DNA of 64,000 nucleotides from Chloroflexus sp. Y-396-1 (GTDB taxonomy: Bacteria; Chloroflexota; Chloroflexia; Chloroflexales; Chloroflexaceae), in contig NZ_KI911784.1 in NCBI RefSeq assembly GCF_000516515.1, positions 2,698,881 through 2,762,880 on the forward strand. Reading direction: 5' to 3'. Shown here piece by piece: positions 18,549 through 23,623 of this stretch (position 1 is its first letter; every line of letters starts with the position of its first letter). The notes beneath the pieces were generated by a model, which worked only from the letters and a program-made list of their open reading frames with translations, was not told where the DNA came from and did no database searches. The translations under genes were made by a program, and so were the position numbers.

Positions 18549-19802
18549 ATGCGCATTGTAGCAATGATCATGGCAGGCGGCGAAGGCACCCGTCTCAGTG
18601 TCCTCTCGGAAAAACGAGCAAAGCCTTCAGTACCTTTCGCCGGTAAGTTTCGGATCATAGATTTTACCCTATCCAACTGTGTCAACTCTGGTATCTTCGA
18701 TGTCGCAGTTCTGACCCAGTACCGGCCTCATTCCCTCAACGAGCACATTGGGATTGGAAAACCTTGGGATCTCGACCGTGCTCGTGGTGGTGTGCGCTTA
18801 CTTCAGCCGTACCAGGGTCGTCGCGATGAGTCGTGGTATCGTGGTACCGCTGATGCGGTCTACCAGAATCTGGCCTACATCCAGGAGCGACGCGCCGATC
18901 TGGTGCTTATCCTGTCTGGTGATCATATCTACAAGATGAACTACAACGATATTATTAACACGCATCTACAAAAACGGGCTGATCTGACAGTCGCGGTGAT
19001 GGAGGTACCACTCGAAGAGACCGATCGCTTCGGTATTATGACCATCGATGAAAACGATCGGGTGATCGAATTCACCGAAAAACCAAAAGGTCGTGATAAG
19101 GGAAATCTGGCCTCGATGGGAATCTACGTCTTCAATACTGACATCCTGATCCGTCGTCTTTCCGAGGGTGGGCCGGAGAAACCCCGAATCGATTTCGGTA
19201 AGGATGTGATCCCGGCGATGGTCGCTGAAGATCGAGTCTTTGCCCACCGCTTCAAGGGGTATTGGGTCGATGTCGGTACGATCCAGTCATACTGGGAGAC
19301 GAGTATGCAATTGCTCGACCCATCACTCGATTTCGATCTCTTCGATCCAAACTGGTTGATCCGCACCCGTAGCGAAGAGCGACCACCGGCCAAGATCGGG
19401 CCGCAAGCAAAGGTGACCCAGTCGATTATCTGCAATGGCTGCACTATTCGAGGGACGGTGATCCATTCAGTCTTGTCGCCGGGAGTCTACGTTTCGCCGG
19501 GAGCGATTGTACGTGATAGTGTGGTCATGAACGATACATGGATTGGCCCTGGCGCCGTGCTAGATCGGGTGATTATCGATAAAAAGGTCGTGATCGGCGC
19601 TGGTGCTCGTGTCGGTTTTGGTGACGATTTGACGGTGCCGAACCGTAAACAACCTGACAAGCTCAACTGTGGCGTCACTGTTGTTGGTAAGGCGGCTCAT
19701 ATTCCAGCCGGGATTACTGTTGGTCGGAATGTGATCATTAATGCAGACCGTGATGCAGAAGATTTTCCTGCCGGTGATGTACCATCGGGCGAAACGATCT
19801 GA
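18549..19802 (+). CDS. glgC: Glucose-1-phosphate adenylyltransferase, catalytic type
   Basis: Makes ADP-glucose from ATP and glucose 1-phosphate, the committing step of glycogen synthesis. 417 residues: nucleotidyltransferase domain with [17 protein letters not shown] (residues 10-26; catalytic R15 and K25 present), [13 protein letters not shown], then a left-handed beta-helix C-terminus with hexapeptides such as [20 protein letters not shown] precedes the ATG. Starts a block of four same-strand genes (glgC, glgC paralog, methyltransferase, GT4) with gaps of 68, 9 and 108 bases. Confidence 0.96.
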
Positions 19803-19870
19803 GTTCCCAGTTTGTCGGCCATACCGACGGGAAACGCTCTTGCTGTATTGACGTTACAAACGGAGTCGAT

Positions 19871-21112
19871 ATGCTACGCACTCTTGTCATGATATTAGCC
19901 GGTGGTGATTCACCGGCACTCAGTGTCCTTACCGCCGAACGCACTGAAGCGGCAGTACCGTTTGGTGGGAAGTACCGCATTATTGATTTTGCGCTCTCAA
20001 ACTGTGTTAATTCGGGTCTATACAATGTAGCCGTGCTGACTCAGTATCGTCCACGTTCGCTCCACGCTCACCTTGGCGTTGGACGACCCTGGGATCTCGA
20101 CCGTGCGCAAGGTGGCTTACGACTGCTACACCCTTCACCGACCCCTGATGGTGGTGGTTGGCAGCGTGGGACGGCAGATGCGGTACGCTACAATCTTGAT
20201 GTGGTTGAAGAACAGCCGGTCGATGCAGTGCTTCTCCTGGCCGGTGACCACATTTACAAGATGGATTATACGCCGCTACTCAAACTGCACGAAGAGCGGC
20301 AGGCAGATATAACGATGGCTGTGCGCAGCGTAAGTCCACACGATGCCCATCGTTACGGTATTGTGTCGGTTGGGAGCGAAGGACGGGTGGATCGTTTCGT
20401 CGAAAAACCACGCCGGGCCGATTCAAACCTTGCGTCAATGGGTATTTACGTCTTCCGTAAGCAGTATCTGATCGATCTGCTTCGTTCGACCGATGCTGTT
20501 GATTTTGGTCGTCATCTGCTGCCGCACATTGTAACAAGTGCGCGTGCTTTTGCTTACTACTTCCAGGGCTACTGGGCCGATGTTGGTACGGTACAGGCGT
20601 ACTACGAGGCGAATCTGGCGTTGCTGGCCGAAACTCCAGCACTTGATCTGTATGACCCCGAATGGGTAATCCATACGGTCAGTTCTGATCGACCGGGTGC
20701 TGAGATTGGCGTGCAAGCACGGGTTGAAAATAGTCTGCTCAGCGATGGCTGCCGGGTATACGGTACGGTTATCGGATCGGTGCTTTCGCCAGGGGTGATC
20801 GTTGCTCCTGGTGCAATCGTGCGTGACTCCATCGTCATGGGAGATGCTATCATCGAACCCGGTGCTGTCCTTGATCGCTGCATTGTCGATGAAGGTGTTC
20901 GGATTGGCGAGGGGGCGCGAGTCGGTGATGGCGATGATAATACCCCGAACGCCGAAGCACCGGAGCGTTTGAATACCGGGCTAACCATTATTGGTTTGAA
21001 GTCCCAGATTCCGGCAGGCGTGCGCATTGGGCGCAACGTTGCGATCAGACCGCGTACACCGGCTATTGCCTTTCCGTCAGATGGTAACGTGCCGAGTGGA
21101 GCGACTATTTAG
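19871..21112 (+). CDS. GlgC paralog with degenerate active site (GlgD-like)
   Basis: 413 residues, same architecture as its neighbour: nucleotidyltransferase domain plus beta-helix with [15 protein letters not shown]. The P-loop-like motif reads GGDSPALSVLTAERTEAA: the catalytic Arg (R15 in the neighbour) is A16 and the catalytic Lys (K25) is E26, while DHIYKMDY is kept. In potato ADP-glucose pyrophosphorylase the non-catalytic large subunit is altered at these same two sites, and Bacillus GlgD is another inactive partner. I therefore infer a regulatory subunit of a heteromeric enzyme. GGAG precedes the ATG. Confidence 0.85.
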   Translation: MLRTLVMILAGGDSPALSVLTAERTEAAVPFGGKYRIIDFALSNCVNSGLYNVAVLTQYRPRSLHAHLGVGRPWDLDRAQGGLRLLHPSPTPDGGGWQRGTADAVRYNLDVVEEQPVDAVLLLAGDHIYKMDYTPLLKLHEERQADITMAVRSVSPHDAHRYGIVSVGSEGRVDRFVEKPRRADSNLASMGIYVFRKQYLIDLLRSTDAVDFGRHLLPHIVTSARAFAYYFQGYWADVGTVQAYYEANLALLAETPALDLYDPEWVIHTVSSDRPGAEIGVQARVENSLLSDGCRVYGTVIGSVLSPGVIVAPGAIVRDSIVMGDAIIEPGAVLDRCIVDEGVRIGEGARVGDGDDNTPNAEAPERLNTGLTIIGLKSQIPAGVRIGRNVAIRPRTPAIAFPSDGNVPSGATI

Positions 21113-22306: not shown

Positions 22307-22414
22307 ACATGGACACAGAGGCGTCAGACATCCTTGCGCCTTCGTATCTTAGCGTGAGACTCCGCTTCATTGCTCACGGATACAGGTATTGTTCAGCTAT
22401 GCTATAATCTGGCT

Positions 22415-23623
22415 ATGCACGTTCTCCAAATCTCTTGGGAATATCCACCTCATATTGTTGGTGGTCTTGGTCGCCACGTAGCCGATCTGGCGCCAGCTCT
22501 AACCGAGCATGACGTTACTGTTACCGTGATAACTCCACAACTGCGTGGTGGGGAAACGTTTGAACGTCATCAAAATCTGACAATTTGTCGTGTTTCCGTT
22601 CCTACGCTCGATACCGACGACTTCCCCGGTTTTGTCTATCGTACCGGTCGTCTTCTTGAGCAGGCAGCTCATGCGCACTTTCCTGGTGGACGACCCGATC
22701 TCATTCACGTTCACGACTGGCTTACCGCCGAAGTTGGGATTGCACTTAAGCATCATTGGCGCATACCACTAATCGCCACTATCCACGCAACCGAACGTGG
22801 TCGGGGGCGGGGTGAGATCAACGGCCATCATGCCCAATACATTAACGATCTCGAATGGCGCTTAACTTATGAAGCCTGGCGAGTGATTGTCTGTTCACAT
22901 TTTATGGCTCGCCAGATTCGCGAATACTTTACGACACCGGCTGATAAAATTGATGTTATCTCCAATGGTGTTCATTTGCCACCACAACCCTTTGCTACTC
23001 CGGCCGAATGGGTGAACTTCCGTCGCCGGTTTGCTGCCGATAACGAAGCACTGGTCATCTTTGTCGGACGGTTAGTGTACGAGAAGGGGGTACATATTTT
23101 GTTAGAGGCCTGGCCGCGAGTACTGGCTGAAATGCCAGCGCGTCTGGTCATCGCCGGTACTGGTAGTATGTTCGATGAACTGCGACGTCGTGTGACCGAA
23201 CTTGGTGTACCGGTGGAATTTCTGGGCTTTATCAGCGATGAAGATCGCAATCGATTGTACGCAGTTGGTGATGTCGCCGTCTTTCCCTCTCTTTATGAAC
23301 CGTTTGGGATTGTAGCACTGGAAGCCTTTGCCGCCGGATGTCCGGTGATTGTCTCTAATGCAGGTGGATTAGCTGAAGTTGTACAACACGAACTCAATGG
23401 CCTCGTCGTTCCGGCTGGAGATGTGGAAGCGCTGGCCCATGCACTGCTCACCAGCCTGCATGCGCCAGCCGATTCACGGCTACGTGCGGCGCGTGGTGCT
23501 GCACTCGCCCGCGCCTACTACACCTGGCCACGCATTGCCGGTGAAGTCAAAGCAGTGTACGATCGGGTCTGGACGGAATGGAAAGCTGGCGCCTGGGGCA
23601 AAGAGATTATGCGCCGCGCCTAA
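22415..23623 (+). CDS. GT4 glycosyltransferase, probable glycogen synthase
   Basis: 402-residue GT-B enzyme. N-terminal domain starts QISWEYPPHIVGGLGRHV, the acceptor-side loop of glycogen-synthase-like GT4 enzymes; the C-terminal donor domain has VGRLVYEKGV and the E-x7-E motif in YEPFGIVALEAFAAG. Its place two genes after glgC makes ADP-glucose (or UDP-glucose) the likely donor and an alpha-glucan the likely product. ATG 22415 is set by the family start MHVLQ. A sucrose- or lipid-directed GT4 is the alternative. Confidence 0.85.
   Translation: MHVLQISWEYPPHIVGGLGRHVADLAPALTEHDVTVTVITPQLRGGETFERHQNLTICRVSVPTLDTDDFPGFVYRTGRLLEQAAHAHFPGGRPDLIHVHDWLTAEVGIALKHHWRIPLIATIHATERGRGRGEINGHHAQYINDLEWRLTYEAWRVIVCSHFMARQIREYFTTPADKIDVISNGVHLPPQPFATPAEWVNFRRRFAADNEALVIFVGRLVYEKGVHILLEAWPRVLAEMPARLVIAGTGSMFDELRRRVTELGVPVEFLGFISDEDRNRLYAVGDVAVFPSLYEPFGIVALEAFAAGCPVIVSNAGGLAEVVQHELNGLVVPAGDVEALAHALLTSLHAPADSRLRAARGAALARAYYTWPRIAGEVKAVYDRVWTEWKAGAWGKEIMRRA

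Follow-up and report, generated by a model that had tools for sequence, protein, structure and literature searches.

A GlgC paralog without catalytic residues accompanies GlgC in Chloroflexota and is a candidate non-catalytic subunit of ADP-glucose pyrophosphorylase

Introduction

The synthesis of glycogen and starch is controlled at ADP-glucose pyrophosphorylase. Forms of this enzyme built from two kinds of subunits have been described in plants, green algae and Firmicutes (PMC6218581, PMC9093745). In potato, the large subunit is a paralog of the catalytic subunit in which a Lys-to-Thr change removed the loop Lys, and giving this Lys back (T106K) makes the protein partially active (PMC2529307). 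This subunit is described as non-catalytic and modulatory (PMC3691274), and the modulatory large subunits of plants are less conserved than the small ones (PMC6218581). As for effector control, Arg41 and Arg53 of the potato enzyme hold a sulfate that is thought to mark the position of an activator phosphate (PMC6218581), while loops containing Gln75 and Trp116 trigger its activation (PMC3691274). In Firmicutes, GlgD is without activity and can modulate GlgC; GlgC/GlgD heterotetramers can differ from homotetramers in their kinetics and activation, and the Geobacillus enzyme is unregulated (PMC9093745).

Here, we describe a pair of genes with a comparable layout in a stretch of 64,000 nucleotides from Chloroflexus sp. 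Y-396-1 (hereafter the window), together with its distribution, its residues and its possible origin.

Results

A second GlgC-type gene lies just downstream of glgC

Two GlgC-type genes follow each other on the same strand of the window, 68 nt apart, and their products P0001 and P0002 are 53% identical (Table 1). No terminator-like site was found in the gap between them (19803-19870), and the promoter-like site listed in Table 1 is the single one at the gap, in a region where promoter-like sites are fewer than in shuffled sequences. P0002 scores 383.9 against the GlgC profile TIGR02091 and 225.2 against the GlgD profile TIGR02092, which is below the curated cut-off in both cases (424.9 and 236.6, respectively). 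P0001, a plain GlgC, scores 246.0 against TIGR02092 and thus also passes the GlgD cut-off, showing that this cut-off separates poorly here. The genome itself (4.89 Mb, one contig) contains nine matches to the nucleotidyltransferase domain, two of them of the GlgC type, and no third GlgC-type protein was found in it beyond P0001 and P0002 at E 1e-40.

Table 1. Features of the glgC-paralog locus, in window coordinates
Feature	Position	Strand	Basis or conservation
glgC (P0001), 417 aa, R15 and K25 present	18549..19802	+	ORF; TIGR02091 446.8 bits, cut-off 424.9
Intergenic gap, 68 nt	19803..19870	+	promoter-like site 19848-19875
GlgC paralog (P0002), 413 aa, catalytically altered, proposed non-catalytic subunit	19871..21112	+	ORF; profile scores
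Altered loop GGDSPALSVLTAERTEA, P0002 residues 11-27	19901..19951	+	ORF translation
A16 (GCA) in place of the catalytic Arg, GlgC R15 (CGT, 18591-18593)	19916..19918	+	alignment; never Arg, 127/127
R24, kept (GlgC R23, potato small subunit Arg41)	19940..19942	+	Arg in 127/127
E26 (GAA) in place of the catalytic Lys, GlgC K25 (AAG, 18621-18623)	19946..19948	+	alignment; never Lys, 127/127
R36, kept (GlgC R35, potato small subunit Arg53)	19976..19978	+	Arg 120/128, Lys 7, Glu 1
Q58, kept (GlgC Gln57, potato Q75, activation trigger)	20042..20044	+	Gln 128/129
W97, kept (GlgC Trp96, potato W116, activation trigger)	20159..20161	+	Trp 128/129, gap 1
Q98 replacing GlgC Tyr97 (aligns with E. coli Tyr114)	20162..20164	+	Gln 123, Glu 5, gap 1 of 129
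D126, kept (GlgC D125)	20246..20248	+	Asp 117, Asn 10, Arg 1, gap 1 of 129
K179, kept (GlgC K178)	20405..20407	+	Lys 129/131
D237, kept (GlgC D241)	20579..20581	+	Asp 115, Asn 11, gap 2 of 128

The original prediction, made from this DNA alone, was that P0002 is a second GlgC that has lost both catalytic residues while keeping its DHIYKM motif, its beta-helix and its fold. The motif and the hexapeptide beta-helix are indeed retained in the P0002 sequence. Its AlphaFold model (pLDDT 89.7) resembles solved ADP-glucose pyrophosphorylases most, since these make up all of the best 50 PDB matches listed, and the fold thus looks intact, assembly being a separate matter. Modelling of the partner GlgC gave a poor structure (pLDDT 68.5), which was set aside.

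A GT4 glycosyltransferase is also encoded close to the pair (22370-23623); with 139.8 bits against a glgA_Coryne cut-off of 302.4, it falls too far below this cut-off to count as a recognised glycogen synthase. The one match of this genome above that cut-off is G000:C1:4871580, and no match in the genome passes the TIGR02095 GlgA cut-off.

Catalytic residues are replaced while effector-type residues are kept

Homologs were sorted by BLAST score. The paralog group contains sequences whose best score was to P0002, with the loop motif not used and with Bacillota left out; L061_1 from KSB1, which has Asp at position 15 and Lys at position 25 and is placed elsewhere by the tree, was removed from it by hand. 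Partner GlgCs are those scoring above 520 bits against P0001, a working group that was defined after the scores had been seen, and GlgDs are Bacillota ORFs shorter than 385 aa with less than 300 bits to P0001. Eleven unusual sequences lacking the Arg/Lys pair fit none of these three groups, and 5 of the 390 ORFs (L018_7, L155_11, L240_3, L266_1 and L273_2) were dropped for poor coverage.

The GGxGTR...RAKP loop of GlgC reads GGDSPA...RTEA in P0002. By alignment, Arg15 and Lys25 of GlgC correspond to Arg33 and Lys43 of the potato small subunit (1yp2 chain numbering) and to Arg32 and Lys42 of the E. coli enzyme. Both were found in 100/100 partner GlgCs and neither in any of 107 different paralog sequences; when 26 further ORFs and fragments were added, both were absent from all 127 paralog ORFs or fragments covering the loop. 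The predicted double loss is therefore real, and such a count rules out the sequencing or strain-specific change that had been named as one way in which the prediction might fail. A third position, which the original prediction did not mention, is affected as well: Tyr97, the counterpart of E. coli Tyr114, a residue with a role in nucleotide binding, is Tyr in 99/100 partner GlgCs and Gln or Glu in 128/129 paralogs. Not mentioned there either, the effector-type Arg23 and Arg35, within and close to the altered loop, are retained (Table 1).

The paralog of the window also keeps the pair of metal Asp, in GlgC Asp125 (the metal or catalytic Asp) and Asp241 (the second metal Asp), and the sugar-phosphate Lys, Lys178 of GlgC (Table 1). 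Glu177 is present in 129/131 paralogs and Ser189 in 122/130. Both metal Asp are present in 114 of the 124 paralog ORFs in which the residues at the places of Tyr97, Asp125 and Asp241 can all be read. Among the paralogs that have an Asn at either site and both sites readable, 9/9 have Asn at both; they form a subgroup in the class of L040, which thus tolerates the loss of the metal site, while L254_4 has Arg at the place of the first metal Asp and keeps the second. Judged from these residues, the active site of the paralog is altered on its nucleotide side throughout, at its metal site in one group and on its sugar side nearly nowhere.

From the analogy of the potato enzyme and of the GlgC/GlgD pair in Firmicutes, we infer that the paralog is inactive, forms a heteromer and modulates the response to activators. 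It would join the product of the glgC directly before it in a heterotetrameric ADP-glucose pyrophosphorylase, as the non-catalytic subunit, and tune the response of this GlgC to sugar-phosphate or phosphate effectors, an explanation that we consider likely. That both metal Asp are retained in most paralogs counts against it, since a purely structural partner could do without them. The lateral-interface Pro (Pro327 of the potato large subunit) may count against it too: it is Pro in 34/107 paralogs versus 77/100 GlgCs, at a place where the alignment is uncertain. At the position of Asp141 of the Agrobacterium enzyme (PMC10461462), Asp occurs in one subunit or in both in 92/92 genomes that could be scored for the pair (70 D/D, 13 N/D, 8 D/N and 1 D/T pairs), a pattern of little weight, since chance would yield no more than about one N/N pair.

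Most of the sugar-phosphate site is retained, which a structural partner would not need, and this suggests another reading: the old active site may have become a sensor, with its ATP half dismantled and its sugar-phosphate half binding glucose-1-phosphate or a related sugar phosphate as a regulatory ligand and signaling to GlgC. The half-site pattern itself arose independently in second GlgC copies of family f5, which lack Lys25 and Tyr97 and retain the sugar half. We know of no control of this sort for GlgD or for the large subunits of plants, and we regard a sensor of this kind as rather unlikely.

In the best tree, the paralog groups with mostly Chloroflexota GlgCs rather than with GlgD

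Instead of having arisen separately, the paralog could be an ancient ortholog of Firmicutes GlgD with the same function. A careful tree of 79 rows was used here, from which 11 of the 90 rows of a first tree, mainly a distant GlgC clade, had been dropped; loop columns were excluded from all GlgC-family trees and from their approximately unbiased (AU) tests. This tree recovers separate clades of paralogs (100/99), of partner GlgCs (100/99) and of GlgDs (100/100). The best tree places the paralog amid mostly Chloroflexota GlgCs (branch supports 97/85 and 98/91), with GlgD outside. Consensus sequences, compared over 392 positions, agree with this placement: the GlgD consensus matches that of the paralog at 145 positions, no more than it matches the GlgC groups (146, 148 and 165), while the paralog matches the remaining non-Bacillota GlgCs at 260. 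Common descent with GlgD would nevertheless fit the order GlgC then GlgD of the Bacillota loci that were read, the loss of Lys25 in both proteins, and eight positions, two of them gaps, at which the paralog and GlgD share a consensus state found in no GlgC group; trees joining the two in one clade were not rejected either (AU p 0.087 and 0.224). Altogether, kinship with GlgD is disfavored by these comparisons, and we think it unlikely that the paralog is its ortholog. The original prediction of an origin separate from that of the Firmicutes pair is thus favored by the best trees and by the consensus sequences, short of being proven, given the AU values of the joint clade.

The other half of that claim, an origin separate from plants, agrees with the trees: plant small and large subunits form their own clade apart from the bacterial rows (100/100, with one plant large subunit, not that of potato, included), and the trees lend no support to descent from plant large subunits. 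Shared descent was rejected with the second copies of family f5 (AU p 8.5e-5, three f5 rows tested) and with paralogs from Desulfocapsa/KSB1 (AU p 0.014). A sister relation between the paralog and the partner GlgC was neither shown nor rejected (AU p 0.48), and the paralog may or may not descend from the partner GlgC itself.

The pair also appears to have moved. The GlgCs and the paralogs of the class of L039 (L039, L260-L286; class of G158) each join those of two genomes of the class of L040, G256 and G276, at 100/100. In the RpoB tree, which included G276 and not G256, three members of the class of L039 fall outside a Chloroflexota clade of 16 rows (100/99). A single RpoB clade of the class of L039 and Chloroflexota is compatible with the data (AU p 0.11), while a grouping with seven Anaerolineae-type rows (AU p 0.00035) or with G276 alone (2e-105) is rejected. 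RpoB is thus apart while both genes are joined, and the simplest account of these trees is that GlgC and its paralog probably crossed between phyla together.

The paralog is found in three classes, mostly behind glgC

The paralog was found, whole or in pieces, in 135 genomes. In the class of the window, 73/158 genomes have it, all of them in families f1, f2 and f4, where it is present in 73/76 genomes and where a search at E 1e-40 found nothing of the GlgC family in the remaining 3. The other families of this class yielded no recognised paralog, their single-copy genomes being read in part. In the class of L040, a Caldilineae metagenome-assembled genome (MAG), the paralog was verified by sequence in at least 47 of 150 sampled genomes, further matches being read only in part, and in the class of L039, an 'Armatimonadetes' MAG, it is present in 15/18 genomes, two of them by partial sequence (G310 and G323). 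The latter is probably an Armatimonadota class. The original prediction had confined the heteromeric enzyme to one lineage, which is too narrow for a paralog found in these three classes.

Paralog ORFs reaching 300 aa are present in 113 genomes, and in 98 of these GlgC is encoded upstream on the same strand, with a median gap of 24.5 nt and with 82 pairs within 100 nt. The two genes are not neighbors, as far as the sequence was read, in 11/113 genomes. Nine genomes of genus f4 g34 have separated genes, G080 among them being cut off at a contig end, and in G174 and G239 no GlgC was found in the 1.5 kb read upstream of the paralog. In the other four of the 15 genomes (G041, G058, G287 and G323), the paralog lies near a contig end and GlgC was not seen upstream. 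One genome, G073 (91% complete), has the paralog and no GlgC match.

Separated genes are what one might expect from a free-standing non-catalytic sensor or binding protein that forms its own oligomer and holds a sugar phosphate in its intact half-site, outside any GlgC tetramer. The near-constant Lys178, Glu177 and Ser189, kept despite the loss of the catalytic loop, would suit such a protein too. The tandem pairing and the kept trigger residues fit a shared tetramer better, and the non-catalytic relatives described in PMC9093745 and PMC3691274 act in heterotetramers, so that we find an independent protein of this sort decidedly unlikely. The proposed subunit of a GlgC heterotetramer has points against it here as well: the separated genes of genus f4 g34 and the lone paralog of G073, and also the fact that tandem order and joint transfer would be expected from linkage alone.

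The paralog varies at its catalytic positions and evolves under constraint

The replaced positions are occupied by many different residues: Ala, Gly, Ser, Asn, Glu, Thr, Lys, Gln or Asp at position 15 (Lys in two sequences), and Glu, Ala, Gly, Asp, Ser or Val at position 25, where Glu is the commonest (103/127) and Lys never occurs. This variety, rather than one new set of residues, argues against an active nucleotidyltransferase with a changed nucleotide or sugar specificity. The loop Arg and Lys that were lost are generally present across the superfamily, and one subgroup lacks both metal Asp. An active enzyme could still be accommodated by the sugar-phosphate half-site and the two metal Asp that most members, including that of the window, retain and by paralog-specific Arg residues at positions 180 (85%) and 181 (94%); taken together, we judge it very unlikely.

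Within the genus of the window (8 genomes, 28 pairs; Nei-Gojobori), the median dN/dS was 0.029 for the paralog versus 0.016 for the partner GlgC, rough values since dS is near saturation. The altered loop ranks 28th in conservation among 373 equal-sized windows in family f1 and 100th of 373 across all paralogs. As a rough estimate from these sequences, the paralog appears to be functional and to evolve faster than GlgC. That it is a degenerating duplicate without function is barely credible, since a dN/dS of about 0.03, ORFs of at least 300 aa in as many genomes as given above and nearly invariant R23, Q57 and W96 outweigh the faster evolution and the broken or split copies, which come from the draft genomes G016, G020 and G210.

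Discussion

The complete contrast at the catalytic residues (100/100 versus 127/127), the kept Arg23, Gln57 and Trp96, the low dN/dS and the tandem pairing fit a modulatory subunit. By sequence, the pair is of the functional kind in which a paralog lacking the catalytic residues stands beside an intact catalytic subunit. In this material, the loss of catalytic residues, the retention of effector-type residues, the constraint and the pairing are established as features of the aligned genes.

If the paralog is such a subunit, it would be one more natural repeat of a gene duplication in which catalysis was lost and regulation retained, and the different residue losses could be followed in living relatives. 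The Chloroflexota pair would then probably represent an extra origin of the two-subunit form, and its presence in many relatives suggests that a two-part tunable enzyme also evolved in bacteria outside Firmicutes. It would also mean that many likely 'glucose-1-phosphate adenylyltransferase' annotations in these genomes do not designate enzymes on their own, which matters for pathway models. We found no published account of this pair in the literature searched, most subscription journals being outside its reach.

Compared with GlgC (TIGR02091), the paralog is alike in fold, length, beta-helix and sugar-phosphate site; it differs in that the catalytic Arg and Lys, the third Gly, the Pro and Tyr97 are replaced, besides its score under the cut-off. 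The original prediction further held that potato large subunits are altered at the same two positions. The Arg position of the potato large subunit is reportedly changed. The Lys part of this comparison is documented (PMC2529307), while the plant large subunit 9xuk_B (PDB), unlike the paralog, keeps both Arg and Lys.

The Bacillus GlgD named as an analog resembles the paralog in its lack of activity (PMC9093745) and less so in its residues. Like the paralog, the GlgDs of Firmicutes lie downstream of glgC, have lost Lys25 (49/49) and keep the effector-type Arg23 (49/49). Unlike the paralog, they still have Arg15 in 32/49 cases, so that only the Lys is always lost, and they keep Tyr97 in 83% and have Asn at the Asp241 position in 71%. 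They are also shorter here, about 370 aa, a biased comparison since length was part of their selection. In some 90% of the 50 GlgCs of Firmicutes (L051-L118), Val, Met, Leu or Ile stands at position 23, and, with Arg at this position in the GlgDs, the pattern looks like a division of labor in which GlgC carries the catalytic Lys and GlgD the effector Arg.

Family f5 (L206, L291, L292, L293 and L172; G082-G086) has a normal GlgC and a second copy with Ile, Val or Leu in place of Lys25. As in the paralog, Lys25 is lost, with Tyr97 replaced by Asp, in 5/5, and the metal Asp, Glu177, Lys178 and Ser189 are kept; in these copies, Arg15 is also kept, and they lie on another contig than glgC. They are an independent case of half-loss. 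In family f3 (L224, L225, L226, L287 and L289), second GlgCs show the reverse pattern of the paralog: 4/5 retain Arg15 and Lys25, whereas the activation-trigger residues are gone, Gln57 being replaced by Asp and Trp96 by Ile, Val or Leu, and these copies are perhaps unregulated enzymes. In KSB1 and Desulfocapsa (L061, L087 and L105), a paralog lies upstream of glgC, with Arg15 replaced by Asp, Glu or Lys, Asp241 by Tyr, and Lys25 kept. As far as sequences tell, losses at the catalytic site are thus recurrent among GlgC-type paralogs, in family f5, in Desulfocapsa/KSB1 and in GlgD of Firmicutes. A catalytic subunit accompanied by a modulatory one is a kind of enzyme that is already known; for this clade, its three-residue signature, its spread in Chloroflexota and its probable passage between phyla, the literature searched gave no earlier account.
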